Positions 14,315-42,239 are shown, numbered from the stretch's first letter. The stretch: 64,000 nucleotides of DNA from Microcaldota archaeon (GCA_022627495.1 JAKEGJ010000024.1:1-64000), one strand, 5' to 3'. Numbers and translations are program-made. Notes: generated by a model from the sequence alone, not told the origin.

Positions 14315-17300
14315 ATGCGAACAATTGCACTTTTATCAGCGCTTTTCCTGGTTTTCGGCTCCTCATATGCCGCGGATGTGAGCGGATGCCAGCTCATCTC
14401 AACGCCTGGCAATTACGTGCTCGTCGCCCCCCTCACCGGCGCGAACATACCGACGCCGGAGCTGGAGGTGTTCGGCTCTTCTTTCAACACGTCCTTCGCA
14501 TGCATCAAGGTACTGTCGTCCGACGTCACCCTCGACTGCAGCAATTATTCAATATCCAACAACGGGACGCTTAAGGCTGCAGGAATTGCGGTCGCCGGCA
14601 CCAATGTCACGAACTATACGGGCGTGACGATAAAGAACTGCCCGGACATCAACGGATACCCGAACGGAATCATGCTGGTCAACACCAGCCGAAGCCGCCT
14701 GCAGAACATCACGGCCCGAAACAACTGGAACACCGGCATCGCTCTCATTTGGAGCGGCTCCAATAACCTCAGCAACTGCACGGCAAGCGATGCGAATGAT
14801 GGCATTCTGCTTGATGAATGGGCATCAAACAACCGGCTCATCGGCAACTCGGTTTTCAACAACTCGGAGGGCATCAGCATCATCTGGTGGTCGACGAACA
14901 ACACGGTGGCCGGCAACAGCGTGCACGACAATATAGACGGCATCCACCAGGCAAGCGGCTCGAACGGCACGAATTTCACCAACAACAGCGTGTATAGCAA
15001 CGGTGACGGATTCGACCTCATCGCATCTAGCCATCTCTTTTTCGACAACAACTCCATACTCCACAATACGAGAGGGATGCAGCTCCAGGAAGTAACATTC
15101 TCCAAGCTTCAACGCAATAGGTTCCACAACAACTCCCTGGCAGGACTATACCTGAACTGGAACTCCAACAACACCACCATCATAAACAATAGCATCGACG
15201 GCTCGACCTATTGCCTTACCACGCTTTCGCCGCACAATCTTACGGCCATAAACACACACGTATTCAACTGCTCATATGGCGTGACACTCGAGGACAAGGT
15301 GATTTCGGGCGAATCGACGCCCGCTCCCGTCTATATATACAACCTCACCGTGGACAGGGCGCAGGGGGACTTCGTGAACTATACGAGCCTCAATATCACA
15401 GACATCATCGAGGTGAACACATCCTACTCGATAACATGGTCCAGCAGGCCCCCGACTCTTCCGCCCAATACGACTTCATTCGCCGGAAAGTTCGTGACCA
15501 TAAAGAACGAGACGTCCACCGCCATCCCGAAGAATGTCTCCATAGACACCATCGTGTGGCAGTGGCAGAATGGAGAGATTAACGGAAGCGTCAATGAATC
15601 CGCCTTCGCGCTCTGGAAATACACTGTGTTTTCAGGCATCTGGAACAACACCAACGCCACCCTTGACACCGGGACGAACACACTGACGCTCACGAACATG
15701 AATCCGGCCTCCGTATATGCCATTCTCCAGTCCAACGCCACCACCGGCAACGGAACGCTTGGGAACTGTCCTGTGATAAACGCCCCGGGGGTGGTCATCC
15801 AGAACCAGAACTATTCGGGCTCTCCGAATGGGAACCTGGGCATCACTGGGACCGCATGCGTCCGGATAAACAGCTCCGACGTCGTTTTCGACTGCAACGG
15901 CTATAACATGAGCCACAACGGGGCCGTCAACACAATCGGCATATTCGCAGGCTCCGGGCTCCACAACATAACAGTGAGGAACTGCCCGCTCATCACGAGA
16001 TATTACTATGGAGTCTATTTCCGCAGGGTGAACGACAGCAGGGTGGAGAATGTCACCAGCAGCCACCACGCGTATGCTGGATTCTATTTCACGGAGAGCT
16101 ACAACAACGTCTTCACCAGGAACATTGTGCAAAACGACACCTATGGCGCCTACTTCACCACCAATTCCAAGAACAGCACCATCACCAACAACAATGCGAG
16201 CAACAACAGCATTTACGGAATACTCGTGACAAACGGTGCGGATGGATGCACTGTATCGGACAACGTACTGAAATTTAACGGCGCATACGGCCTTAGCGTG
16301 GGATCATCCAATTCGGTCGTGAGGGATAATTTGGTGCATAGGAACCAGAATGGGTTGTACCTTTCGGGGACCAACACTACGCTGCAGAACAATACACTGA
16401 GCAACAACACCCAGTTCGGCGCATACTTGTCAAACGCTATAGACTGCACTTTCGAGAAGAACCAGGTGAAATATAACGGCGGGAGCGGACTCTATTTCGA
16501 CAGCACTCCCGGGAACAATTTCTCCGGCAACGAGGTTTCAGGCAACGGCGGGAGCGGATTCTACCTTAAAGGGGCAATGAACAACCGGTTCGAGGCCAAC
16601 AACGTCACGAACAACGGCGCGTGCGGATTCAACCTGAGCTGGGGGGGTGAGGGCAGCCCGGCATTGAACAACACATTGACAGGTAACAACGTGACAGGAA
16701 ACGCCATCGACGGAATCCTCCTTGAATCGGCCGCAAACACCAGCGTATCGGGCAACAATATCAGCGGAAGCGGGCGGAATGGGATAACCATATCGACAGG
16801 GACCGATGCGTTCAGCGCAGGAAACAATTCCGTGCTCCTTGGCAACAGGCTCTCGGACAATGCTCTGGATTTGCTCGTCAACGCCTCCTTCGACATGTAT
16901 TATACGATGTCCGACAACCTGTTCCTCAATCCGGCAGGAACGATGGGGAACTTCACCAACCTCAGCATCAACGACACAGTACTGGCCAGTTCGGCCTATT
17001 CGATAAACTGGAGCCGGGCCCCTTCCGTGCCAATCCCGGGGGGATACCGGTCATTTTATGAAAAATATGTGAATATTACCCGGATTTCCGGGAACGTCTC
17101 CATAGACGGCATAGCATGGCGCTGGCTGGATTCCGAGCTTGCCGGAACGCCGCCATACGATGAGAACATGCTTCGGGTATGGAAGTACAATGCCAGCGGA
17201 TGGAACAACACCCTGGCCCCAAACAATCCGTTCACGAACACCATGCACCTCTCTGGCATGAATCCGGAATCCATATACGCGGTCCTCGAGAAAAACGAAT

Positions 17301-18937
17301 TCGCGCCTTCCATCCCCATCGACGAATGCACGGTGATAAACGAAAGCGGGAGTTATGTTTTGAGCGCCAACCTCACAGGCAACTTAAGCAACGGCGCCTG
17401 CCTGAAAATCGAGGCTTCGGACGTGTTCCTTGACTGCGATCGGCATCCGCTGACGGACTCTTCCGAAGCTGTCGGAATCTGGATATCCTCCGCGAATAAC
17501 GTTACGGTTGTCAACTGCACCGTCATAGATTATGACGGCGGCTTCCTCATCGATAACGTCACCAACTCGCTTTTCCTCCACGACAGGGTGGTGGACAGCG
17601 AATACGGATTCTGGTTCAACCGCAGCAGCGACAACAATCTGACCTCCTGCAGGACGAGGGGCGGGGGCAGGGGCGTGGTCAAGACCATGTCGAGGCGCAT
17701 ACATATCGACCCCTCCGAATTCTGCGGCAGCATAGTGGGCATCGAGCTGAACATGACCAACGATTCCGTGATAGAGGATTCTACGGTCTGCAACAACACG
17801 CTGTACGGAATCCACCTTATAGATTCCGGCAACATCACAATAAGGAATTCGAGGACTCATAACAACGGCCTGGACCTGATTGATGAGAACAATCTCGGGA
17901 GTCCGCTGGACATCCATGTCGATTCCCTCATTATCGACAGGCCTGCAGGCGACCTCGAAGCCTACACAAACCTTAGCCTAGAGGACAGCCTCAGCCCGTC
18001 CTCGGCGTTCTCAATAAACTGGAGCGCGAATCCCGGCTCGCTTCCCGAAAACTTCACGAGCTTCAACGAAAAGTTCGTGGATATCGCTGCCCTAAGCGGC
18101 ACGGTTTCCATAGATAGCGTCACATACCGGTGGAAGAACTCCGAAGCCATGGGTTACGACGAGAGCACACTGGAGCTGATGAAGTACAACGGCTCCTGGG
18201 AAGGCACGGGCGCTGCGCTGGATGCCGAAGCCAACACGCTCACGCTCGCTCCGCTCGTTCCGGCCAGCACTTACGGAATACTCAGCAACCTGACTCCGAA
18301 GAACTGGAGCGACGTAACGCTATACGGAGCGAACCTGTCGGATGTGACCGAGTTCCCCCGCTACAACGGGACGGCTGCGGGCAACGAAACCACGGAAGGC
18401 GGCAACATAACTGCTGCAAACACCAACACGACGCAGCTCACCGAAAGGTGGGCGGCATATTTCGGGAACGTCACCGGGGACATTTCCCTTGGCCAAGGGC
18501 CCGGCGCGCAGAACGTGTTCACATGGGCATGGAACCCCGCGGCGGGCGGAGTCGTATGTGCATCCACCAATTCAACACTGGGCATGTTCACGGCATACCC
18601 GGCATACGGATTCGACATAGATTCGGCATGGGGTTTCATCCCTGCGACCACGGATTCAGGCACGAACACGTTCAATTTGACAGACTGCACGCTCGATATC
18701 GGCGGCGGGACGATAAGCAACGCATCCTCCGCGGACACCGGGCAGCCGGGGGGGTTCCGCACCTGCGCGCTGAAAGCGGACGCGCTCCCGGCCAAGGGCC
18801 AGATGGTCTTCTGCTCTGAGATAATAGGCGGGGGCACCGCCTGGAACAGCCAGAGCGCGGATTTCGAAATAATCGTGCCGACTCCGGAGAGTTTCGGCTC
18901 GACGGAAACATATTATTTCTATGCGAACCTTAACTGA
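14315..18937 (+). CDS. Giant secreted parallel beta-helix (NosD-type) surface protein
   Basis: 1540 aa; Sec signal MRTIALLSALFLVFGSSYAAD; many GI.L..S.NN.. repeats; three internal modules. Confidence 0.87.
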   Translation: MRTIALLSALFLVFGSSYAADVSGCQLISTPGNYVLVAPLTGANIPTPELEVFGSSFNTSFACIKVLSSDVTLDCSNYSISNNGTLKAAGIAVAGTNVTNYTGVTIKNCPDINGYPNGIMLVNTSRSRLQNITARNNWNTGIALIWSGSNNLSNCTASDANDGILLDEWASNNRLIGNSVFNNSEGISIIWWSTNNTVAGNSVHDNIDGIHQASGSNGTNFTNNSVYSNGDGFDLIASSHLFFDNNSILHNTRGMQLQEVTFSKLQRNRFHNNSLAGLYLNWNSNNTTIINNSIDGSTYCLTTLSPHNLTAINTHVFNCSYGVTLEDKVISGESTPAPVYIYNLTVDRAQGDFVNYTSLNITDIIEVNTSYSITWSSRPPTLPPNTTSFAGKFVTIKNETSTAIPKNVSIDTIVWQWQNGEINGSVNESAFALWKYTVFSGIWNNTNATLDTGTNTLTLTNMNPASVYAILQSNATTGNGTLGNCPVINAPGVVIQNQNYSGSPNGNLGITGTACVRINSSDVVFDCNGYNMSHNGAVNTIGIFAGSGLHNITVRNCPLITRYYYGVYFRRVNDSRVENVTSSHHAYAGFYFTESYNNVFTRNIVQNDTYGAYFTTNSKNSTITNNNASNNSIYGILVTNGADGCTVSDNVLKFNGAYGLSVGSSNSVVRDNLVHRNQNGLYLSGTNTTLQNNTLSNNTQFGAYLSNAIDCTFEKNQVKYNGGSGLYFDSTPGNNFSGNEVSGNGGSGFYLKGAMNNRFEANNVTNNGACGFNLSWGGEGSPALNNTLTGNNVTGNAIDGILLESAANTSVSGNNISGSGRNGITISTGTDAFSAGNNSVLLGNRLSDNALDLLVNASFDMYYTMSDNLFLNPAGTMGNFTNLSINDTVLASSAYSINWSRAPSVPIPGGYRSFYEKYVNITRISGNVSIDGIAWRWLDSELAGTPPYDENMLRVWKYNASGWNNTLAPNNPFTNTMHLSGMNPESIYAVLEKNEFAPSIPIDECTVINESGSYVLSANLTGNLSNGACLKIEASDVFLDCDRHPLTDSSEAVGIWISSANNVTVVNCTVIDYDGGFLIDNVTNSLFLHDRVVDSEYGFWFNRSSDNNLTSCRTRGGGRGVVKTMSRRIHIDPSEFCGSIVGIELNMTNDSVIEDSTVCNNTLYGIHLIDSGNITIRNSRTHNNGLDLIDENNLGSPLDIHVDSLIIDRPAGDLEAYTNLSLEDSLSPSSAFSINWSANPGSLPENFTSFNEKFVDIAALSGTVSIDSVTYRWKNSEAMGYDESTLELMKYNGSWEGTGAALDAEANTLTLAPLVPASTYGILSNLTPKNWSDVTLYGANLSDVTEFPRYNGTAAGNETTEGGNITAANTNTTQLTERWAAYFGNVTGDISLGQGPGAQNVFTWAWNPAAGGVVCASTNSTLGMFTAYPAYGFDIDSAWGFIPATTDSGTNTFNLTDCTLDIGGGTISNASSADTGQPGGFRTCALKADALPAKGQMVFCSEIIGGGTAWNSQSADFEIIVPTPESFGSTETYYFYANLN

Positions 18938-29924: not shown

Positions 29925-32489
29925 TCAGCCGCCCAGGCTCAGGCCCCCGCCGCCAGTAGTTGACGTGGTAGCGCACTGCGGAAGGTCGGGGATATAGGGC
30001 GTGCCGCTAAGGGGCAAAGTCCGGTCCATCAGCTGGAAAAGCCGCTTTCCGTCTGGGCAGAAGTTGTTCGGGCATCCGTTGCTCAGGTATATGAACGCCT
30101 CGACCTTGTTCTTGCCCGGGTCCGCCCTGCGCGGGAGGAACGGCACCTCGCACTCCTGCACGTACTGTATGAAATCCGTGTAGCCGTAGCACTCGTACGG
30201 CGGGTTCTTTTTTGGGTGTCCCCCTTCGCAGTGCGGGTCATCCTGGCCTTCGCTCGATGAGCAGTATGTGTCGTTCACGGCCCAGCTGAGCGAGAAGCCG
30301 TAGGCCCAGCAGTCGCCGTTCGAGACGCCGCTCGAGCACCGGGGGTGGTCCGCCGCCCTGGCTGTGCTTCCCCAGAAGCCGGCATACATGTTGCCGGCGA
30401 TGTATGCCGCAAAGAGGCTGTCCTTGTCAATGTCTCCGGCGCCCCAGTTCAGCTTGCCGCGGTTGCTGCTTATCCACGCTCGCGCGTCTCGGAGGGCCCC
30501 TTCCATCTTGAGCGTCCCCATGCAGATTGAATCCGCAGGGACGAACGGGTTGAAGCGGGGGTTGCATCCTTTGGCCCCGACAAGGCTGATGGTGTGGAAG
30601 CCGGAGCGGTTGAAGACGTCGAAATACGGGCCGTCCGCGCCGTCCGGGTTCATGGCCGCGGGCCAGAAGGTATAAGGAGGCTCGAGGCTCTGCATCAGCC
30701 CCACTGCGCAATAGCGCCAGTCCGGGGCGGAGCTCCCTGAATTTGGGGCGATGTCGAATGTGCAGTTGCCGTTGGGGAGGTCGTACATCTCGTCGTATGC
30801 CTTGTCGTAGCACTCGTCCTTGCCCGGGCCGGGCTCGAAGCAGCGGCCGTCGTCATAGCCCTGCCTGCAGACGCGCGCGGCGGAGCAGGGGTCGAAGCCG
30901 CTCTCTGTGAGCACGAACGCGCGCACGAGCATCGGGTCGAGGTTGCGGGCGCTCGCCCACTGGTTGATTTCCGGGAATGCTGTGCAGTAGCGTTCAGGCG
31001 GCACTCCGCTTGAAGGGCGAAGGCTCGGGAAAATGTCGCTCACCGGGCGGCTGGCATTCGCCAGAAGGCATGCGTCGCAGGTGAATAGCAGGGGCGCGGC
31101 CGCCCGGAGCTCGACGGTCTGCTGCTGCATGATGTCGCGGCCTGCGAAGCTGAACCCGCGCATGTAATCCATATTCAGGTTGGAGTTGCATGCGGTCCCG
31201 GATTCGTTGCCAAAGACAATCTGCTGCGGCGACGGGTTGCTTGCCCCGGGCCTGGAGTTGTTCGTGAATGCCTGGCAGCCGCCGTACCAGGCCCGCAGGC
31301 GCGATGTGGTCCTTCCCACGCCGCAGTCGGTGCAGTTGAGGGGATTGGTGACTCCGATTCCCCCTGAAGTGTTGAAGGAATATGCGGCAATGCCTATCAC
31401 GCCCCGCTGCTTTAGCGTCGTGACGCCGAATGGGAAGAAGGCGCCGTAGGCCGAGACGACGTCGCTCTCGGTCCAGTTGCACGAGTTGTCGACGTCGCTT
31501 GTCCCGGGGTCGAACAGGACGTAAGGTATTATCGTCGGCTTGCTCCAGTTGTAAAGGGCGTACATGGAGAAGTTCTTGGCCTGGAGCCTGACATTCCCCG
31601 CGTCGCAGGTATGCATGTATCTTCCGTTGATGCCGTATGCGACCAGGTCCACCTTGTCCCTGTCGGCGCTGAGCGCGTTCATGACGGCGTCGAGAGCCTC
31701 GAAATCGTTGATTTTGGGCGCAACGGCGATGAAGCAGTTTATCTTGTTGTTGGCGCGGTCGTTCCGGCATCCGCTGTCTATCGCCCGCACCTGGGCGGCG
31801 ACTTCCCCGGCCCTGCTCTTGTCGAAATCCATCTCGGTGACCGCTATGACCGGCCCGACAGGGCCGCTGGAAAGCCTTCCGAGGAAGAGGTCGTCGCCCT
31901 CCGTTCCCCAGATTTCGCTGATGCTGGCGGTGCGGCTGATGTTGATGTTCGTTCCGTTGCTGTAGAATATGTATACGGGGATGATGTCCTTGCTCAGGAA
32001 GCACATGGCGCGCATGGCATCAGGGCGCAGGTACGGCGTCACGTTGTCGCCGACAAGCCACATGACGGCCATGTTCAGGCGGTCCGAGCACTGGGTGTTG
32101 GCGGCGCCGAAATCGCCGAATGTCGGGCCCTGGCCTATCATGAAAGGCCGCACGGAGAGGCTCGGGTCTCCCGTGTTGTTGTAGTTGTCATACTTCGCCA
32201 GCTGCTCGGGGGTGCAGTTCTTGTCATAGTAGCAGTAGCCGCCTATCAGGTTTGTGAGGGGGCCGAAGATGTTGGTGCCGTTCTTGCAGACCATGCACCA
32301 GCAGCTTCCGGGCTTGCAGAACTCTGCCATGGACGAATTGAATATCGCCACCCGGCTGAGGTTGTTGCGGTAATCCTGCTCGAAGAGAGAGGAGCCGCCG
32401 TTAAGCTTCTGCAGGCAGCCCGGAAGGATTAATGACACGCAAAGGAGCGCCAGAAGCGCCGGTATGAAGACTGCTGGTCTCATGGACAC
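29925..32489 (-). CDS. Secreted lipoprotein with SLT-like lytic transglycosylase domain
   Basis: Signal LLALLCVSLILPGC; ARNLDPMLVRAFVLTESGFDPCSA (catalytic Glu), YCAVGLMQS, FNPFVPADSICMGTLKMEGAL, AAYIAGNMYAGF. Confidence 0.75.
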   Translation of the reverse strand: MSMRPAVFIPALLALLCVSLILPGCLQKLNGGSSLFEQDYRNNLSRVAIFNSSMAEFCKPGSCWCMVCKNGTNIFGPLTNLIGGYCYYDKNCTPEQLAKYDNYNNTGDPSLSVRPFMIGQGPTFGDFGAANTQCSDRLNMAVMWLVGDNVTPYLRPDAMRAMCFLSKDIIPVYIFYSNGTNINISRTASISEIWGTEGDDLFLGRLSSGPVGPVIAVTEMDFDKSRAGEVAAQVRAIDSGCRNDRANNKINCFIAVAPKINDFEALDAVMNALSADRDKVDLVAYGINGRYMHTCDAGNVRLQAKNFSMYALYNWSKPTIIPYVLFDPGTSDVDNSCNWTESDVVSAYGAFFPFGVTTLKQRGVIGIAAYSFNTSGGIGVTNPLNCTDCGVGRTTSRLRAWYGGCQAFTNNSRPGASNPSPQQIVFGNESGTACNSNLNMDYMRGFSFAGRDIMQQQTVELRAAAPLLFTCDACLLANASRPVSDIFPSLRPSSGVPPERYCTAFPEINQWASARNLDPMLVRAFVLTESGFDPCSAARVCRQGYDDGRCFEPGPGKDECYDKAYDEMYDLPNGNCTFDIAPNSGSSAPDWRYCAVGLMQSLEPPYTFWPAAMNPDGADGPYFDVFNRSGFHTISLVGAKGCNPRFNPFVPADSICMGTLKMEGALRDARAWISSNRGKLNWGAGDIDKDSLFAAYIAGNMYAGFWGSTARAADHPRCSSGVSNGDCWAYGFSLSWAVNDTYCSSSEGQDDPHCEGGHPKKNPPYECYGYTDFIQYVQECEVPFLPRRADPGKNKVEAFIYLSNGCPNNFCPDGKRLFQLMDRTLPLSGTPYIPDLPQCATTSTTGGGGLSLGG

Positions 32490-32543
32490 CGATGGGAATT
32501 AGCCCGTTCGATAATTTAAACATTTGTTCTTGCCGGATTGCGC

Positions 32544-33722
32544 TCATTCCGGAGGCTGGTTCCCTGCCCTCGCCACCTTGAGCTGGAACGCCTTCCTTGC
32601 CTGTTGGCCCACGGCCGGCTTTATTGCCGGGGATTGCCCAGGAATACGGGGAGCGCGTCGGGGTGCCTCGGCCTGGCCCGGATTCGCCAGTATTGGGGGC
32701 TCGGCATTGGCATTGGGATTGTGAATGGATTTGCGCGCATGGGGGGCGAGACGGCCGGCTGCGCGGAGAAGGCAGTCTGAAAAAGCCGCTGCTGTGCAGG
32801 CGGCCCGCAGAAGCAGGCCGGAGAATGGAATGGGAAACGAAAACCGGCTGGGGCCAGGCTGGGGCATCGGAGTATCCCCTTGCCCGGAAGGGACTGCATT
32901 TATGGATTGGGCAGAAGGAAGGCTGGCGGATATGCCGAGCTGGTGACCGTCCCGGCGGGCACGGGAGCCGGATGGGACGAGTTCTGAGGAATTCCATTCT
33001 TGATGCCCGGGGCGCGGACCGGCATCCGGCACGCGGGAGGCATGAGGATGGTGCCCGGAAAGCCCAGTTGGCAGGCCGGGAATGATGCTGGGGGCATCCG
33101 CAAACGTCTGGGGTTCCGGCTTCGCGCCCATCATTTGCCCGTATGGATTGCGCCAATCCGCTGGCCGGCCCTCGGCTATGGCCGCCAAATTGCCTAAGAA
33201 CCCGGGATTTTCCCGGATATGCGAATCCCTGATGCGTGCTGGGAAGGGGAATGCCATGTCTCCATAGCTGTGCGGATGGCCAAGGCCAAATGCCATGAAA
33301 CCGGACCCGGTTCCGCGGCCAGGGGCCACGTAGCCAGGGGGTTCGTCGAATGCATGCCCATGCAGATGTGAGCCGGAGCATCTGAGCGCCAGGTTCCGGA
33401 TTTCGCCGCTAAGGATTGGGTTGGAGCAGTGCTCGAGAGGAGACGAGTGTGAGACCGAAGGGGCCCGCTGGTGCATGGTGTTCCGGTTCAAGCCGCCGGT
33501 CACCTGGTCCGCCCGCAAGCCGCGCCTCCCGCTCTTGTTGTATGCGTACTTGTGAAGCAGGGGATTCTTGAATGAGAGATGGGGCTTGTATTCTGGGAGG
33601 ATCTCCCGGCGTTCGGAGAGCATGGGCTTCGCTGCCGCCATCCCCCGCCACGTTCTTTCCTCCCGCCTTAGAGAGGTAGTCCTATGATTGAGGATTCTCA
33701 TCGTAAGGGAAAACAAAGCCAT
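32544..33722 (-). CDS. Low-complexity Pro/Gly/Ser/His-rich, probably disordered protein
   Basis: 392 aa ORF filling the gap between two same-strand genes; coding status not certain. Confidence 0.45.
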   Translation of the reverse strand: MALFSLTMRILNHRTTSLRREERTWRGMAAAKPMLSERREILPEYKPHLSFKNPLLHKYAYNKSGRRGLRADQVTGGLNRNTMHQRAPSVSHSSPLEHCSNPILSGEIRNLALRCSGSHLHGHAFDEPPGYVAPGRGTGSGFMAFGLGHPHSYGDMAFPFPARIRDSHIRENPGFLGNLAAIAEGRPADWRNPYGQMMGAKPEPQTFADAPSIIPGLPTGLSGHHPHASRVPDAGPRPGHQEWNSSELVPSGSRARRDGHQLGISASLPSAQSINAVPSGQGDTPMPQPGPSRFSFPIPFSGLLLRAACTAAAFSDCLLRAAGRLAPHARKSIHNPNANAEPPILANPGQAEAPRRAPRIPGQSPAIKPAVGQQARKAFQLKVARAGNQPPE

Positions 33723-33870
33723 GTTTTTAAATTTAATGCAGCGGCTTACGCTTCAAGACGTAGGATTTTCACGACAGGAAACGTAATGGGCGTCATGGGC
33801 AGGAACCCCGGGGGATATTCTGGGAAGAAAAGAGGTAAAATATAGAAAAATATGAAAGAAAAAGGGAAAA

Positions 33871-36800
33871 TCAGACCATGTTCTTGCCGCAGGAGGGGCA
33901 TTTCTGGTACCTGCTCCCCCTCGCGCCGCAGTGCGCGCAGCGGACGTCCCATGCCATCTGGCCGGGCTTCATCAGCCTGGACATGCCATCCGACATGTTT
34001 TTCACGCTGCGCTTCATGCCCGCCCCGACGCTCACGCTCTGCCCGTGCTTGGCTGCGGCCACGCGCTCGGATATCATCTTGGGTATGCCGAGCGTTATCG
34101 CCGCGAAGTGGATTGGCGTCATGAACCTGCCCTGGGGCGTCTGGAGGCTGCTGAAGTTCATCATCTCCTGCAGCCTCTTTATGGCAAGCGACTCCGCCGA
34201 CACGGTCCTCCGGACTGTGAGGTTGCTGGCCGCATCGTTGATGTCCTTCTGGTACCTGAACGCCGCGTCCTTCATCAGCTCGTGGGCCATGGGCGCGTCG
34301 AGGTGCTGGACGTTGCGGACGTCGTAGAACTTCTCGCGGGGGTTGGCATCGCCATACCTGCCCACGACAGCGACACCCTTGCGGACACGCATCGTATCCA
34401 TGGTGTCGGCTGAGAGGCCGAGCATGACCTCTTCTCCTGCCACCTGGGAGTGGCGCGCCTTGCCGCTGAAGCCGCTGAGCTTCTGCGCCCATTTCGAGCT
34501 GCTAAGCGAGAACGGGTTCGTCATCGCCTGCAGGGCTGATTGCACGCGCGGCTCGGTGTGGTAGAGCGTCCTGAACGGGTCCGTTGTGGTGTCCCACCGG
34601 CCTGCACGGCCGGACATCTCCTTCTGCGCGGCGCTGACAGGCGTTGCGAACCAGCTCATCACCTTGCGCGAGAGGTCCATCGGGAAGCCGTAGAGGGCGT
34701 TGAAGTTCCACATCGTGGTCTTGTCCATGTACGCCCCGATGTAATCCTTCTTCTTGAAGGTAAGGCCCGGGCCGTGCGAGAATAGGCCGGCATCGGCAGC
34801 CTGCGTGCTGTGCGAGGTGGAGTAGCCGAACGGCGAACGGTCGACAGTCCACTGGCGCGCCTGTATGAACGCGCCGTGCATCGCCGCGTAGTCGCGGTAG
34901 GCCGCAGCCTCCTTGGGCGAAAGCTTGTCCATGTCCTGGCCCGAGAGTATCCTCCGCGTCAGCTCGTTCGAGTGGATGCTGTACGCGCCGCCGACCGCGG
35001 CTATGCCGTACGAGGTGTCCAGTACCGGGCCTGCGGACTTGATGGCCACTTTCGAGACCATGTCCATGCTGGAAAGGCCGAGGTTGCGGAAAGGAGTCGC
35101 GGCCCTCATCAGCTCCGGCGCCTCCACACCGAACATGCGGAACACGGACGGCGCAACCGGGGTGACCTGGCGCTTCGCCTCCACGGTCACCGAGCTGTGC
35201 TTCCAGAAGCTGTCGTAGTCGTGCGTCCTGGTGCCGTATTCCCAGAGGACTGCGCCGAGAACCTTCTCCTTCTCGTAGTTGTGGACGCCGCCCTCCTTGG
35301 CCCATTTCACGACAGACTCCATGAACGACTTCCATTCGCCCGGGTCCTTGGTCTGGCGGAGCTTGTTGAACTGGGAGGAGAGGTCGTCCCTGCTCCCGAA
35401 TGTGATGGCAACGTCTTCAGGCACGAATGGCCGGAGCTGTCCCTTGTCGTCGCGGAGGGCCGCCTGGCCCGCCATGACGCGGTCCATGTCGCTCAGTATC
35501 ATGCCCTTCTTGTAGTAGGCGTATCCGCCTTCCTGCAGGAGGACCATTGCCCGGTTCGACTTCGCTATGTCGTCATAGGTCACAGGCTTGCTGATAACGG
35601 CCTTGTATTCCTTGTCGTACTTCAGGAGCAGGTCCTTGAAGTGCGAGAGGTCCTTCGAGCTTGTGAGGTCCATGCCGCGGACAAACTTCAAATCGTCGTG
35701 GCTGGCCGGAAGCTTCTTGTCTTCCATCGCTTTTTCCAGGAAGCCGGCCATTATGTTGCCGTAGAACTTCACGGATTCCCTGGTCGTGCCGTAGGCGTTG
35801 TGGCCGAACTGGGAGTTGAACCTCACTTCCAGGTCCTCTACGAGCGCCTTGGTGACCGCGAGCTTCTTTATCGCCTGGGCCTCCTGCTCGCCGCTCATGC
35901 TGGCATAGCCGGGCAGGCGCTTGACCTGCGCCTCCACCACCGGGTCGGCGTAGGTTATGTTGCCCCTTGTGACGCGGGCTTCGAGCCATGCGCCTATCGA
36001 GGCTATCTCCCTTATGTCCACGTTTGTCGTGTAGCGCCCTTTCAGGTCGACCTTGGTGGCGTTCTTGGGGAGCCCCAGCTCCACATCCGCGTTCCACCAC
36101 GTCATCCTTCCGGTCTTCTTGTCCATCTCGCCGCTGCGCGGCAGGTTGCCGCCGTACATGAATTCGACGAGCTGGGATATGGAAGCGTTCTCGATGCTGG
36201 TGGAGAGCTTCCGGTTGCTGGCGTATTTGGCGAACTCCGCCCGCCCTTCGGAAGTGAAGAGGGAAACCAGGTCCTGCCGGTTCCTCTCCGAGACCTTCTT
36301 GAGTTCAGCGGCGTTCCTCATGTGCTCGGGAAGGAGCTCCATGGTCCCTGCCGCCGCAGGGTCGAGGCCTGCAAGGCGGTTGGCTATCTTGAGCCGGGCT
36401 CCCAGCAGCTCTTCGGCGATGCCGCCGTTGAGGTAGCCGTTCGCGCCGTCATAGACCATCGTGCGGAAAACCATGGTCTCCAGTATCTGGTTGCCCCGGA
36501 GCGTTTCGCCGCCGACGTGGCAGACGTAGGCATTGTCCTTTGCCATCCCGCCGGTCGAAACGGCCAGCTTCACGCGGTTCTGCTCCTCGAGCGCCTGCTG
36601 GAGGAGTATCATCTTCACGTGCTCCGGCTGCGCCGAGGCCTCTATCGTATCGAGGCGCCTCGTGAAGTTGACCATCTGGTGGTCTATGTCCGCGTGGAAC
36701 TTGCCTGCGACGCCCATGAGCGCGGTCAGCTTCTCCTGCGCGCTAAGGGCGGGGTTGGAGAGGTGGCGTTTTATTTCCGCCTCGGCCTGCAGGAGCGACT

Positions 36801-38640
36801 CGCGCTGCGCCTGGCTCATCGCAGAGTAGCCGGTCACCTTGAGGATGTCCACGTCCTTGTGCCCGAGTTGGGCGAGCTCCTCTTCGCTCATCCGGACGTT
36901 GATGCCCATCTTCTTGTATATCTGGCGGAGGACGTAGCGCATTTCGTCGTTGAGCGCTTCGTTCCGGAGCGTCTTGTAGAGGTGGGCCATCCGATCGTTC
37001 ACCGGGAACATTGTGCCCACGACCACTTCGGACGGGTGCTTCTGGAGCCAGTTGGCGGCCCATGCGGCCGTCTGCGAGGTCTTGCCCCTCGCCTCGAGCT
37101 CCTCCATCGCGTGCTTGCCGCCAAGCATCTCCATCGTGGTCCTCGCGGTCGCGCGCGCAAGGTGCGGCGTTTCGGTGGCTATCGACTTGGTCATCCTGCC
37201 CATTATGCGGCCGGTCCTGACCATGGAGTCGGTGCCCGCCATGACGACGCCGCTCAGTATCGCGTAGCGGTTCGCGCCGTAGAACTTGCCGAGGGTGCTT
37301 GTCAGGCGGTAGTGCGCCGCGCTCCGCTTCCCGTATTCGGGGTGGGCTGTGAGCACCTCGAGCTGCTTGAACGTCGCTGCGCCGTAGAAGTAATCGCGGA
37401 TTGTCATGGCCATGAGGGCCTGCCTGCCTCCTGCGGCTTCAAGGCCCGCGAGTATCTGGGCCACGAGCTTGTGCTCCGCGTCGCCGTAGTGGTACGGGAG
37501 CGTCCGGGCAAGGGACGCAAGCTCGCTTCCGCGCATGCCAAGTGACATGCCCGCAGTCACGAGCGAGCTGGCTATGCGCTGGTTCTCGGCCACGTCGCCG
37601 GCCGCGCGGTCGGCTGCCGTTCCGCGCTGGGCGCGTATATCGCTCTGGAGCCGGTCGTGCTCGGAGTTGCCGGCGAACTTGCCCTGCATCACCGCCCTGC
37701 TCGCTTCCACTGCCGCGGCCGCGGTCCTCATCTTGTCCTTGGCCGATTTCTTCATCTCCGTGTAGCCGAACGGCGCGAGTATCTGGCCGCTTGCGGTCAC
37801 GCCCTTGGGCGTCGGGAGCCTCGGCGTGGTGATGTCAAGGAGCGTTATGGGCGATTTGCCCGAGAAGTAAAGCGATGCCAGCAGGAGCCCCATTATCATG
37901 AAGATGCCCACGCATGGCAGGGCGCCTCCCTGGAGATTGCTGCCCGCGCCGCCCGCATCGGCGACGCCGTTTATGAAGTTCCGCAGGTCCTGCGCGAACT
38001 GGGTCGCAGGAGTGACATTGGCGTTCGTGTATTCGTATTCGGCCGAGCTCTCGCTTACCGGCTGGTCCGGAAGCGGGACGAATGTGGCGCGTATGTAGGC
38101 CTTGTTGGACAGGCCGACATCAGGGCCGATGTCGCACTGGGCGTAATAATAGTTGGTCGCTATCATGTCTCCGGTAGTCGGGTCCGGGCGGTATGCCACG
38201 CCCACCTGGTTCGCCACTATGTCGCTGCAGCCGGGAAGGACGGTCCACTGGCCGCGGTACGAGTTCCCCATGGGGTTGAAGGATTCAACGACGAAATGCG
38301 CATTCTGCAGGGACGTCAGGTTCATCGTATAGTCCCTGGAGGCTGCGGTCCGCTCGAGCGACTTCTGCTCTATGCAGCTCATGCGGTTGGCCGCGCCTGC
38401 GCACTCCTGGACTATCTGTTCCATTACAGTGCGTATGTCCGTGCCGCCGGTGCTTGTCGCCGGCTCGAAGACCAGGACGCTGATGTTGAGGAGAGTGCCC
38501 GCGTCGTTGGCGGGGGTTATTATGACCTGGCTCTCCTTCAGGCTTTCCTGAGGGAAAAGCTCGTCTGCGAAAGCTGCGCCGCCAAGCAGCACGAGCACCA
38601 AAGCGCCCAAAACGAATTTCAATCCTGTCATACCGAACAC
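33871..38640 (-). CDS. Giant membrane protein: secreted N-domain, TM, ~1300 aa alpha-rich region, C-terminal zinc ribbon
   Basis: Signal MFGMTGLKFVLGALVLVLLGGAAFA; TM LPCVGIFMIMGLLLASLYFSG; C-terminus CAHCGARGSRYQKCPSCGKNMV; 1589 codons open. Confidence 0.9.
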   Translation of the reverse strand: MFGMTGLKFVLGALVLVLLGGAAFADELFPQESLKESQVIITPANDAGTLLNISVLVFEPATSTGGTDIRTVMEQIVQECAGAANRMSCIEQKSLERTAASRDYTMNLTSLQNAHFVVESFNPMGNSYRGQWTVLPGCSDIVANQVGVAYRPDPTTGDMIATNYYYAQCDIGPDVGLSNKAYIRATFVPLPDQPVSESSAEYEYTNANVTPATQFAQDLRNFINGVADAGGAGSNLQGGALPCVGIFMIMGLLLASLYFSGKSPITLLDITTPRLPTPKGVTASGQILAPFGYTEMKKSAKDKMRTAAAAVEASRAVMQGKFAGNSEHDRLQSDIRAQRGTAADRAAGDVAENQRIASSLVTAGMSLGMRGSELASLARTLPYHYGDAEHKLVAQILAGLEAAGGRQALMAMTIRDYFYGAATFKQLEVLTAHPEYGKRSAAHYRLTSTLGKFYGANRYAILSGVVMAGTDSMVRTGRIMGRMTKSIATETPHLARATARTTMEMLGGKHAMEELEARGKTSQTAAWAANWLQKHPSEVVVGTMFPVNDRMAHLYKTLRNEALNDEMRYVLRQIYKKMGINVRMSEEELAQLGHKDVDILKVTGYSAMSQAQRESLLQAEAEIKRHLSNPALSAQEKLTALMGVAGKFHADIDHQMVNFTRRLDTIEASAQPEHVKMILLQQALEEQNRVKLAVSTGGMAKDNAYVCHVGGETLRGNQILETMVFRTMVYDGANGYLNGGIAEELLGARLKIANRLAGLDPAAAGTMELLPEHMRNAAELKKVSERNRQDLVSLFTSEGRAEFAKYASNRKLSTSIENASISQLVEFMYGGNLPRSGEMDKKTGRMTWWNADVELGLPKNATKVDLKGRYTTNVDIREIASIGAWLEARVTRGNITYADPVVEAQVKRLPGYASMSGEQEAQAIKKLAVTKALVEDLEVRFNSQFGHNAYGTTRESVKFYGNIMAGFLEKAMEDKKLPASHDDLKFVRGMDLTSSKDLSHFKDLLLKYDKEYKAVISKPVTYDDIAKSNRAMVLLQEGGYAYYKKGMILSDMDRVMAGQAALRDDKGQLRPFVPEDVAITFGSRDDLSSQFNKLRQTKDPGEWKSFMESVVKWAKEGGVHNYEKEKVLGAVLWEYGTRTHDYDSFWKHSSVTVEAKRQVTPVAPSVFRMFGVEAPELMRAATPFRNLGLSSMDMVSKVAIKSAGPVLDTSYGIAAVGGAYSIHSNELTRRILSGQDMDKLSPKEAAAYRDYAAMHGAFIQARQWTVDRSPFGYSTSHSTQAADAGLFSHGPGLTFKKKDYIGAYMDKTTMWNFNALYGFPMDLSRKVMSWFATPVSAAQKEMSGRAGRWDTTTDPFRTLYHTEPRVQSALQAMTNPFSLSSSKWAQKLSGFSGKARHSQVAGEEVMLGLSADTMDTMRVRKGVAVVGRYGDANPREKFYDVRNVQHLDAPMAHELMKDAAFRYQKDINDAASNLTVRRTVSAESLAIKRLQEMMNFSSLQTPQGRFMTPIHFAAITLGIPKMISERVAAAKHGQSVSVGAGMKRSVKNMSDGMSRLMKPGQMAWDVRCAHCGARGSRYQKCPSCGKNMV

Positions 38641-38715
38641 CTAATCACAACTGCTAATATCGCGCTTTTCCCGCTTTATAAAGGTTTAGGTTCATAGTAT
38701 CCATGAAAAATACAA

Positions 38716-38736
38716 AAACTACAAGATTTGTAGTTT
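38716..38736. promoter_or_regulatory. Perfect 9-3-9 palindrome in a divergent promoter region
   Basis: AAACTACAA-GAT-TTGTAGTTT. Confidence 0.75.
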
Positions 38737-38768
38737 ATTGTTATAAAAACATGTTCAAGGTGGTATGA

Positions 38769-39821
38769 ATGAAGGGCCCGAACCCGTTTGCGCCATGGAA
38801 TGCGGACCCCGCGGGGATTTGCGGGAGGAAGGAAGAGGCGAAGGCTTTTTCCTCTTTCGCGAACGCAACGGCTTCGAAACAGGGCGGTGTTTTGCTTGTC
38901 GTGGGGGGGCCGGGGTCTGGAAAAAGCGCTTTGCTCTGGTATTTCCGGGCCGAGGCCGAGAAGGCGGGCCTGCTTGCGCCTTTCGTGAAAGCAGACCGGA
39001 ACGAGGGCATGGACTCCCTCGCGGGCAAGGTCAGGGGGGAGCTTGCCTCCGTCGCAGAAACGGGGGGGGCGCCAGTCAGGGCCCTGGCCAAGGCGTCTCC
39101 CCGCCAGGCCTCTCCTGAAGTCGGCATGGAAGGCATTGCAGAGGAAGGCGTGAGGGCGGCGAGAAAGCACTTCGGCGCGATAATATTCATAGACGATTTG
39201 GACTGCATGAGGAAGCCAGATGAGGCGCTCAAAACAATATTGAAATCCGCCGAAGCGGGCTGGGGGAAGCGCAACCTTTCCTTCGTCGTGAGCTCCACGC
39301 GGGGGTTCGGCGCCGATTCCCAAATCCTAAGGAGAATGGAGCTGAATCCGTTCGGGGAGCACGACGCGCGCGAACTCGTGGAGAAGGCGCTCAAGAAAGG
39401 GCCGCCGAAGATGGGGGAGGAGTGCCTGCAGTCGATTCTGCAGGACAGCGGTGGCAACCCCCGCCTGATAAAGACGGTCTGCTACGGCATTTACGACAAG
39501 CTCCGGGACAGCGAGAAGGTGATAACGAAGGGGCATTATCTTGCCTACCTGCCCCAGATTATGGGCACCATCTCCCGCGAATGGTTCGGAGGGATGTACC
39601 AGGAGACTCCGCCTGCAGAGCGGGACATCCTGCACGCCCTCGCGAAGGAGGAGGATGGCGCGCATGTGTCGGATATTGCGAGGATGGCCGGGAAGAAAAT
39701 GGGGCCGACGACCGCACTCATCGGACGGCTGCTCGGGCGGGGGCAGATTATAAAGGTCGCCAGGGGCAAGTACCGGGTATTTTCCAGGCTCTATGGCAGG
39801 TATGTCGCGCAGAGGGCCTGA
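38769..39821 (+). CDS. P-loop (AAA/STAND/Orc-like) ATPase with C-terminal wHTH-like region
   Basis: VVGGPGSGKSALLWYFRAEAE (Walker A), GAIIFIDDLD (Walker B), AHVSDIARMAGKKMGPTTALIGRLLGRGQIIKVARGKYRVF. Confidence 0.82.
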   Translation: MKGPNPFAPWNADPAGICGRKEEAKAFSSFANATASKQGGVLLVVGGPGSGKSALLWYFRAEAEKAGLLAPFVKADRNEGMDSLAGKVRGELASVAETGGAPVRALAKASPRQASPEVGMEGIAEEGVRAARKHFGAIIFIDDLDCMRKPDEALKTILKSAEAGWGKRNLSFVVSSTRGFGADSQILRRMELNPFGEHDARELVEKALKKGPPKMGEECLQSILQDSGGNPRLIKTVCYGIYDKLRDSEKVITKGHYLAYLPQIMGTISREWFGGMYQETPPAERDILHALAKEEDGAHVSDIARMAGKKMGPTTALIGRLLGRGQIIKVARGKYRVFSRLYGRYVAQRA

Positions 39822-39834
39822 TTGCAGCAACCGC

Positions 39835-40350
39835 TTACGAAGCAAGTGCCCAGTCCGTGGCGAACACGTCCATGAACTCTCCTACGGCTTTTGCATCGCG
39901 GATTATGACCGACGCCTCGCGGTTTTTGTAGAGGGCGGAATTGCTCAGGTTGTGCGAGCCGACCAGGACGGCCTTCCCGTCCACAATGATGAACTTGGCG
40001 TGCGTGAGCTTGTAGGCGCTGCTTGCGTAGCGGATTCGAAAGCCCTTCGAGGCAAGTTCCTGGAAAATGGCGTCGTTGTCGTCGCTTATCACGTTCCGCT
40101 CGATTATTATACGGACCATAACGCCGCGCGCTTTGGCCCGCTCCAGCGCCTCGACCACATCGCGCGATGTGAAGACGTAGATTTCGATGTCGATGCTCGA
40201 TTTGGCGCCATCCAGGAGGAGCGGGATTTCCTCCCCATCCTCCGGGGAGAAGACGGCCTGGATTTCCGGCGCGAAAAGGGCGGGCTGGAGGATGAAGAAG
40301 AGCAGCGCGCCGGCCGCCATGCCCGCCCCGAATACGGTTATCTTGCCCAT
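39835..40350 (-). CDS. Membrane-anchored single-domain PLD-like phosphodiesterase
   Basis: N-terminal TM; THAKFIIVDGKAVLVGSHNLSNSAL HxK motif. Confidence 0.87.
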   Translation of the reverse strand: MGKITVFGAGMAAGALLFFILQPALFAPEIQAVFSPEDGEEIPLLLDGAKSSIDIEIYVFTSRDVVEALERAKARGVMVRIIIERNVISDDNDAIFQELASKGFRIRYASSAYKLTHAKFIIVDGKAVLVGSHNLSNSALYKNREASVIIRDAKAVGEFMDVFATDWALAS

Positions 40351-40535
40351 GGGCGATGCGCTGCGGAGGGGGTATAAATCGGTTGGCATTCCGGAACGTT
40401 ACGCATCCACATTATCGAGGGGCTGCGTTTTCCTTTTCCGGCCTTGCGCCTTCGTCGTATATGCACTGAAAAAACAAACAATTATAAACATCAGATGAAC
40501 CGTAGTTTTGAAGGCCGGGTCCTTGGAGTGGAAAT

Positions 40536-42239
40536 ATGGGGAACAACAGAAGAACCGGGAGTTTTGGATTCATGGGAAATTCGGCAGCGGCTGCCAGGAA
40601 CGCTGCCATGAGCAGGGCAGGCTTCCTGAAGACCGTTGGAACAGGCGCTGCCGCAATGGGCGCAATTGCCGCCGGATTCGGCGGGGTTGCGATGGCCGGG
40701 AAGGCTCCGCCACCAGCTTATGACCGCATCGTAATCGGCACGGGCATTCCGTCAGTTGATGTTCAGGCAGTCCAGGCTGCAGTGGACCTTGGCGGCACGG
40801 TGCTCCTGAAAGGGACATTCGATTTCGGGACAGACCGGGGCAGCCAGATTATCGTGCCCGGAAGGCCCGCTCAGCCTGCAGTGCCCGGCGGGGACTACCA
40901 GGACCGGAAGGGGGAAAGCACGGTTTTCATATATAACCGCGATGTTAAAATATTAGGCGAATCCGATGCGGATGGGAATCCCCTCACCGTAATAAAAAAT
41001 GGGGCGCCGACGTTCTGGATCGGGTGGGACGGCATCACGCACAGGGCTCCGCCATCCGCGGTTTTTGGCGTCGAGCTATTTCCAGTGGACCAGTATGGAA
41101 ATATATATGGGGGCACACAGCTGCGGTTTTACCAACCATATTGGCCGGAGGTTTCAATCGAGGGGATTTCCTTCGAACACCCCATATTCCGTGCTTTTGG
41201 CGTGGGCGCTTGCAAGGGCTTCACATGCAGGGGTAACCAGGTCACTGATGCCGCATATGAACTGATGAACATCAACGGGCTTGCAGACTCCCCGATACAG
41301 TATAGTGCCGGTGCAGGAGGCTGCGTCAGCGTCTTCGTAGCGCCATTTGTTTTCCCTCCCCAGATACACCCATTCCTGCCGCCAGGATTTGAGTGGATTC
41401 CCCCGGTTGAAGGCATTGTCGGTAATATCGTGATTGAGGATAATGTTTTCGAGAATATGGGAGTCGTGAATACGATACCCGCTGCCACTATTCCCAATGA
41501 GTTCGTAGGGACGGGAGTGCTGTTCTCTAACGCAGCCAGCATAAACATTTCCAAGAACCGGATGAAAAACCTCGGCCTGGGAAGACCTATGGAGCACGGT
41601 TTCGGCATACTGTGCAATGATAACTTTCCGACAAGCAACAACGATGCCGCCATCATCAATATCAGTAAAAACAGCGTAGAGAACAGTGCGGGTTTTGGTG
41701 TGCAGGACTACCAGGTTTATGCCGAGATTCCGGGCGCTGTGATTTCCGGCAACGATTTCACCAACTGTTTTGTTGGCGTCCAGGTGCTGGATAAATCCGG
41801 AACGGTGATAAAAAACAACAGGATAACGAACGTGGCCTTCACAGGCATATGGCTGTCGAGCTATTACGGCCTCCCCGGCGCGAGAAACTGCTATATTGGT
41901 CAGAATAAGATTGCCGGGACTTCGATGTTCGGGGCAATAATCGGGGGGCCGTCCATTATGGGTGGGCAGGAGAGCAATGGCAGCGGGAATGTCTTCGTAG
42001 GAAACGAAGTGGCGTATTTAGCCACGCCTCCGTTCCCATACGGCGCTACTTACTACCTATCCGTCAATACGGCCAGTAATGTCATCAACGGGGATGCGGG
42101 AAGCGTAATCAATCTGGGAACAGACAACTTCATAACCGGAGTGACCCCGATGTCCGGAGCGCCGCAGCTCGGAACGCAGATGGCCGAGGCAGCGAAGAAG
42201 GTCAGGGATTACCGGCTGGCTTTCCCGAAACAACAATAA
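40536..42239 (+). CDS. Secreted right-handed beta-helix protein with Tat-like signal
   Basis: MSRAGFLKTVGTGAAAMGAIAAGFGGVAMA; many N-I/G-I beta-helix repeats. Confidence 0.85.
   Translation: MGNNRRTGSFGFMGNSAAAARNAAMSRAGFLKTVGTGAAAMGAIAAGFGGVAMAGKAPPPAYDRIVIGTGIPSVDVQAVQAAVDLGGTVLLKGTFDFGTDRGSQIIVPGRPAQPAVPGGDYQDRKGESTVFIYNRDVKILGESDADGNPLTVIKNGAPTFWIGWDGITHRAPPSAVFGVELFPVDQYGNIYGGTQLRFYQPYWPEVSIEGISFEHPIFRAFGVGACKGFTCRGNQVTDAAYELMNINGLADSPIQYSAGAGGCVSVFVAPFVFPPQIHPFLPPGFEWIPPVEGIVGNIVIEDNVFENMGVVNTIPAATIPNEFVGTGVLFSNAASINISKNRMKNLGLGRPMEHGFGILCNDNFPTSNNDAAIINISKNSVENSAGFGVQDYQVYAEIPGAVISGNDFTNCFVGVQVLDKSGTVIKNNRITNVAFTGIWLSSYYGLPGARNCYIGQNKIAGTSMFGAIIGGPSIMGGQESNGSGNVFVGNEVAYLATPPFPYGATYYLSVNTASNVINGDAGSVINLGTDNFITGVTPMSGAPQLGTQMAEAAKKVRDYRLAFPKQQ

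Follow-up and report, generated by a model that had tools for sequence, protein, structure and literature searches.

A giant membrane protein and a glycosidase-like lipoprotein as probable parts of a type IV secretion-related machine in Micrarchaeota

A 64,000-nucleotide stretch of a Microcaldota archaeon (GCA_022627495.1, JAKEGJ010000024.1:1-64000), hereafter the window, encodes between positions 29,925 and 40,350 a 1589-amino acid (aa) membrane protein, GIANT, and a lipoprotein carrying a lysozyme-like domain, SLT. We consider it probable, if well short of certain, that GIANT and SLT are two surface-facing parts of a translocation machine of the type IV secretion system (T4SS; Ced/VirB) superfamily that is conserved in Micrarchaeota and whose other parts are dispersed. 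In the source genome, these other parts would be six VirB6/CedA-like proteins with six transmembrane segments (6-TM), named p1 to p6 and encoded on C26, and a split VirB4 composed of a 2-TM protein and a CedB/VirB4-like ATPase encoded on C29. The source genome belongs to Micrarchaeota (DPANN), measures 1.45 Mb in 29 contigs, and is about 82% complete; the genomes used for comparison are mostly metagenome-assembled, with mechanical gene calls. Counts obtained with the GIANT and 6-TM profiles refer to 223 sampled Micrarchaeota genomes, and loci are described below as belonging to the window's family, as same-order loci, or as class-level relatives.

GIANT and SLT form a conserved gene pair

The five adjacent open reading frames (ORFs) from which a sequence-only reading had composed a possible envelope or secretion locus are all present at the positions given in this text. 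The features of the two ORFs that bear on the machine are as follows.

33871..38640, minus strand: GIANT, 1589 aa, probably 1586 aa with the true start at M4
37801..37920, minus strand: GIANT transmembrane segment (TM, aa 241-259) and juxtamembrane motif LYFSGKSPxxLLDITTPRLPxPKG (to aa 280), from conservation
33889..33939, minus strand: GIANT C-terminal CxxC...CxxC, aa 1568-1584, from conservation
29925..32489, minus strand: SLT lipoprotein, 854 aa, true start probably at M3, with lipobox C25, Cys-rich N-domain, TIM barrel, and SLT domain
31257..32159, minus strand: SLT (beta/alpha)8 barrel, aa ~111-411, from an AlphaFold2 model, Foldseek, and conservation
30075..30998, minus strand: lysozyme-like SLT domain, aa ~498-805, with putative catalytic E529, from Pfam in a homolog, an MltC match, and conservation

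Among 33 related loci from named genomes, all 30 that extend past GIANT have SLT directly downstream of it in the same orientation. The pair is found in many families of the phylum, more than chance would explain. In another set of loci, L069 had appeared to lack SLT, but the gene is present there and this exception was discarded; the 811- and 796-aa proteins of G098 and G211, considered as SLT relatives, were rejected. The sequence-only reading was to fall if the homologs were never co-located or if each matched an unrelated housekeeping family; for SLT and GIANT, the neighborhood is conserved and no such family was matched. Between the two genes, nearly every other locus has a gap of some -165 to +456 bp, versus about 1.4 kb in the window, a length shared only with the closest relative, G009, in which two tandem SLT lipoprotein genes were observed downstream of GIANT (L032 13597-18778).

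GIANT comprises a signal peptide, a Cys-containing ectodomain of about 215 aa, a single TM, a cytosolic part of about 1300 aa, and a zinc-ribbon-like C-terminus. Full-length homologs of similar length occur across the genus (28-85% identity), and a profile of the ectodomain and TM matched 84 of the 223 genomes. Only five columns are invariant among 31 diverse homologs, all of them inside the juxtamembrane motif, and 13 homologs keep the four C-terminal cysteines with little or no exception. No Pfam, NCBIfam, or PADLOC family scored above its cut-off with GIANT. The ectodomain resembles an approximately 505-aa protein encoded upstream of VirB6 in conjugative elements (P 6.4e-5 over 93 columns), a profile similarity that may serve as a lead only, since a generic beta-sandwich preceding a TM could account for it. 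Elsewhere in the source genome, two short GIANT-like ORFs on C17 (L100 6892-7721, minus strand; about 35-38% identity) are probably a degraded paralog fragment. Very large ORFs were also observed near GIANT-like genes, in G088 (L063; 3480 and 3065 aa, each truncated by a locus end) and in G098 (L151 4517-12640; 2707 aa).

SLT is modeled as a TIM-barrel glycosidase-like domain joined to a lytic-transglycosylase domain. The AlphaFold2 model (pLDDT 79.9) contains an eight-stranded barrel followed by a helical domain bearing the SLT motif, and the top Foldseek matches of the barrel were glycosidases of the GH53, GH26, GH5, and GH10 types (best E 8.9e-6), most of the best Protein Data Bank (PDB) matches being what we take to be clan GH-A members. 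E219, located right after strand beta4, is invariant in 29 of 29 homologs, but no invariant Glu follows beta7 in the same alignment, as the clan GH-A nucleophile would have to; catalysis by the barrel is thus putative and we did not assign it to this clan. For the second domain, the Pfam SLT family (PF01464) scored weakly in the window copy (12.3 bits) and at 24.2 bits in the G066 homolog (L058), against a curated cut-off of 21.3, and a match to MltC was obtained (E 0.05-0.12). The putative catalytic Glu of its ES motif, E529, is kept in 25 of 29 homologs and lost in some class-level relatives. A 445-aa paralog of the barrel part was also observed in the source genome on C16 (L109 9213-10550, minus strand), near the system labeled B there, with 53% identity to the G009 copy.

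The pair is linked to arrays of six paralogous membrane proteins

Nine same-order loci place GIANT-SLT divergently next to five to six consecutive paralogs of about six TMs each, which share the signature FLPxGxxLRxFxxTRxxGGxLIA; the members tested had no Pfam match. Relatives of these proteins were found in 205 of the 223 genomes. The source genome itself contains three such arrays (on C16, C3, and C26) and one single copy, and the arrays on C16 and C3 each sit with a lipoprotein of about 1300 aa, six 6-TM genes, and a divergent giant. In profile comparisons, the SLT barrel domain was recovered in homologs of the lipoproteins at these two loci (P 3.6e-9), and the ectodomain-TM part of GIANT in the giants of these loci (P 9.8e-14). 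These results indicate that lipoprotein, giant, and array belong together as a three-part unit, of which a single genome holds paralogous copies.

All arrays lying wholly within the fetched sequence contain six genes. In a tree of 75 6-TM proteins, p1 to p6 grouped by operon position, with eight label changes versus a mean of 50.8 after shuffling (0 of 200 shuffles); p2, p3, and p5 each formed one group and p1, p4, and p6 required two to three changes, the deeper branching being limited by long branches and a quick search. The six are thus positional orthologs, which implies six distinct subunits. In the same tree, each C26 gene clustered with its positional counterparts in the arrays adjoining GIANT-SLT in relatives. 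From this grouping, the C26 array, although on another contig, is the probable partner of the window pair.

That SLT and GIANT form a two-gene system of their own, unrelated to the arrays and next to them in one order by coincidence, is very improbable. No array adjoins the pair in the window's family or in certain class-level relatives, but the paralogous loci of the source genome carry the lipoprotein, six-gene array, and giant homologs together, and the grouping of the C26 array with GIANT-SLT-linked arrays also speaks against such an independence.

The arrays show a profile-level resemblance to VirB6 and, in three genomes, linkage to a CedB/VirB4-like ATPase

The 6-TM proteins were compared with a VirB6-like reference set, made of proteins encoded beside intact VirB4 genes in Micrarchaeota (conjugative elements), whose relatives were found in 27 of 301 class genomes. 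The array profile matched the VirB6-like profile (P 1.1e-5), in the same register for p1 to p6 (p3 weakly), whereas the null controls, reversed profiles and four unrelated TM families, gave P values of 0.04-0.8. A sequence search of the PDB with the 6-TM profile returned nothing, and no CedA match was obtained from NCBIfam.

In G211, G124, and G098, the array is directly followed by two small proteins of one to three TMs and then by a CedB/VirB4-like ATPase. A VirB4/CedB/HerA-superfamily ATPase linked to the system, one of the marks of the T4SS superfamily, is thus present in three genomes. In the source genome, the ortholog of this ATPase is located on C29, unlinked to the array; it shares 67% identity with the G098 ATPase and 40% with the single-copy type described below. 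The sequence-only reading had seen no VirB4-type ATPase, which holds within the window but not for the genome as a whole. The first NCBIfam match of the array ATPase was CedB (1.8e-20), followed by VirB4 families, all under their curated cut-offs (73 versus 700 bits for CedB). The 2-TM protein, of about 270 aa, aligned collinearly from end to end with the N-terminal region of VirB4 (226 columns, P 1.8e-4, versus 0.035 for the reversed control).

An intact VirB4 encoded on C29 at ~79 kb was rejected as the partner ATPase: it is part of a separate conjugative-element-like locus (~75.7-81.6 kb; L099 5732-11616) with its own VirB6-like gene, an approximately 505-aa ectodomain-TM protein, and a 1140-aa VirB4 with a PrgI-like N-terminus. 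This locus lies near putative DNA methylase genes.

A single 6-TM gene with a 2-TM gene and a CedB/HerA-like ATPase gene, a Ced-like minimal set, was also observed on C21 (L098 6667-10919), and again in G066, G211, G124, and G224. It bears on the idea that the arrays take part in a Ced/Ted-like exchange, in which chromosomal DNA would be moved between Micrarchaeota cells for repair and GIANT-SLT would be accessory mating-contact proteins. We regard this as unlikely. The CedA/CedA1/CedB layout of the single locus, CedB as the best NCBIfam match of the array ATPase, and a NucT-like PLD gene beside an AAA_16 ATPase gene in the window's family are in its favor. However, the single locus is separate and its 6-TM protein forms its own clade in the tree, so that a different or additional function is probable for the six-paralog arrays. 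The known system (CedA, CedA1, CedB; PMC9905601) likewise combines a polytopic CedA-like protein, a 2-TM protein, and a CedB/VirB4/HerA-type ATPase, encoded on the chromosome of an archaeal host, but it has one CedA instead of six distinct 6-TM paralogs and lacks a giant TM protein, a glycosidase lipoprotein, and an approximately 270-aa 2-TM protein resembling the VirB4 N-terminus. In addition, the Micrarchaeota ATPase scores far under the CedB cut-off, and no pilin was identified in the loci read, without a systematic search. The array system therefore falls outside the Ced/Ted definition of a single CedA, a CedA1 pilin, and CedB.

Weighing the proposed T4SS-related machine

Several observations count against a T4SS-related machine that includes GIANT and SLT. 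Many genomes with 6-TM genes yield no GIANT-profile match (84 versus 205 of 223), so that the pair is either a lineage-specific addition or too diverged elsewhere, and in the window's own family it adjoins neither an array nor a CedB/VirB4-like ATPase. The cytosolic part of GIANT matches nothing, and archaeal glycans are only candidate substrates of SLT. The similarities to VirB6 and to the VirB4 N-terminus are modest and at profile level. Reading of the loci, which was not a systematic search, brought to light neither a pilin nor VirB8/9/10, a relaxase, or a dedicated coupling protein. Finally, one 6-TM protein was modeled with AlphaFold (pLDDT 79), and the model matched no PDB fold, VirB6 included, with nothing below E 0.001. 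Taken with the profile match, this makes it likely, short of proof, that the array proteins are VirB6-type.

The lack of a fold match also suits a non-translocating scaffold or surface-attachment apparatus, in which the six paralogs, the giant anchor, and the glycosidase lipoprotein would construct or reshape the envelope, or keep hold of a partner cell, and no VirB-type transport channel would be involved. Such an apparatus would be consistent with the scattering of array, CedB/VirB4-like ATPase, and GIANT over the source genome, and the predicted glycosidase domains would suit envelope remodeling. It is nevertheless quite unlikely in our view, considering the direct operon linkage of the array with a CedB/VirB4-like ATPase in three genomes and the VirB6-register match with its clean nulls.

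We therefore retain the translocation machine. The suggestion of a secretion or conjugation logic in the association of a wall hydrolase and a giant protein is supported, through comparisons that reach beyond the window: the pair goes with a six-paralog VirB6-like array, and the array with a CedB/VirB4-like ATPase in sister lineages. We propose that the non-interchangeable p1 to p6 would form one heteromeric channel, a complex whose stoichiometry, like the assignment of the C29 ATPase to the C26 array, we infer. The ATPase would drive a substrate, DNA or protein, through this channel. GIANT, held by its single TM with the nearly invariant juxtamembrane motif, would join the channel to a large cytosolic scaffold or substrate adaptor and to the ectodomain, and SLT may open the glycan layer of the cell's own envelope or of a partner cell, by analogy with the VirB1/PrgK-type hydrolases of bacterial T4SSs.

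The SLT lipoprotein shares with VirB1/PrgK-type hydrolases and MltC-type lytic transglycosylases its export, an SLT-type domain with a conserved Glu, and association with T4SS-like genes; unlike them, it is archaeal, Cys-rich, and fused to a clan GH-A-like TIM barrel, and a murein substrate should not be assumed. The Rickettsiales rvh T4SS (PMC2653234) also has several divergent VirB6 paralogs, parts scattered in genomic islets, and a lytic transglycosylase (virB1) encoded apart, but it is a bacterial diderm system with VirB8-VirB11, VirD4, and five VirB6 copies, and with neither a GIANT nor a TIM-barrel lipoprotein. In R388, VirB6 assembles as a pentamer (PMC9259494), from which a set of six unlike subunits would differ. 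The MPF-FATA T4SS of Patescibacteria (PMC12102498) is comparable as the near phylum-wide T4SS of an ultrasmall, host-dependent lineage; it is, however, bacterial, with an intact VirB4 and a single VirB6, and is nested in the MPF-FATA class.

A more far-reaching version, which we put forward tentatively and as doubtful, is that of a new T4SS class forming a core organelle of Micrarchaeota, with one channel made of six VirB6-like subunits that must all differ and with VirB4 split, in which, in many lineages, the giant anchor and double-glycosidase lipoprotein would breach the envelope of a partner cell, making it a host-contact machine.

Neighboring genes in the window

32544..33722, minus strand: 392-aa 'disordered' ORF, a doubtful gene outside the conserved module
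38769..39821, plus strand: AAA_16/STAND-like ATPase with a winged-helix-like C-terminus (AAA_16 1.7e-10), divergent from GIANT
39835..40389, minus strand: membrane-anchored PLD-superfamily protein, NucT/DrmC-like (PLDc_2 1.9e-29)

The five ORFs did not prove to be a literal five-gene module. The frame read as a disordered protein does exist, but its only homolog is in the closest relative, with similarity over the first ~150 codons, where the coding signal is weak (substitutions by codon position 46/34/67); the remainder of the GIANT-SLT gap is about 45% identical DNA between the two, i.e., unconserved, and the ORF was rejected as a module member. The AAA_16 ATPase gene lies beside GIANT in 19 loci and the PLD gene is found in 16, mostly tail-to-tail with it, all within the window's family; both are family-level neighbors of GIANT and not members of the wider module. 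A defense-system reading was also set aside, PADLOC supporting only a generic PLD domain (DrmC). Topoisomerase VI-like genes adjoin the region, no RNA gene in it matched Rfam, and right-handed beta-helix/NosD-like proteins of 1540 and 567 aa are encoded at 14315-18937 and 40536-42239.

Significance

No description of a Micrarchaeota GIANT-SLT/six-paralog machine was found in the non-subscription literature searched, and our best reading is an apparently undescribed variant of the T4SS/Ced superfamily. Such a machine could help to explain the exchange of material between host-dependent DPANN archaea and other cells. GIANT, SLT, and p1 to p6 are concrete proteins for localization in Micrarchaeota-host co-cultures and, if the machine transports, nearly the whole phylum would possess a T4SS-like apparatus whose channel is hetero-oligomeric.

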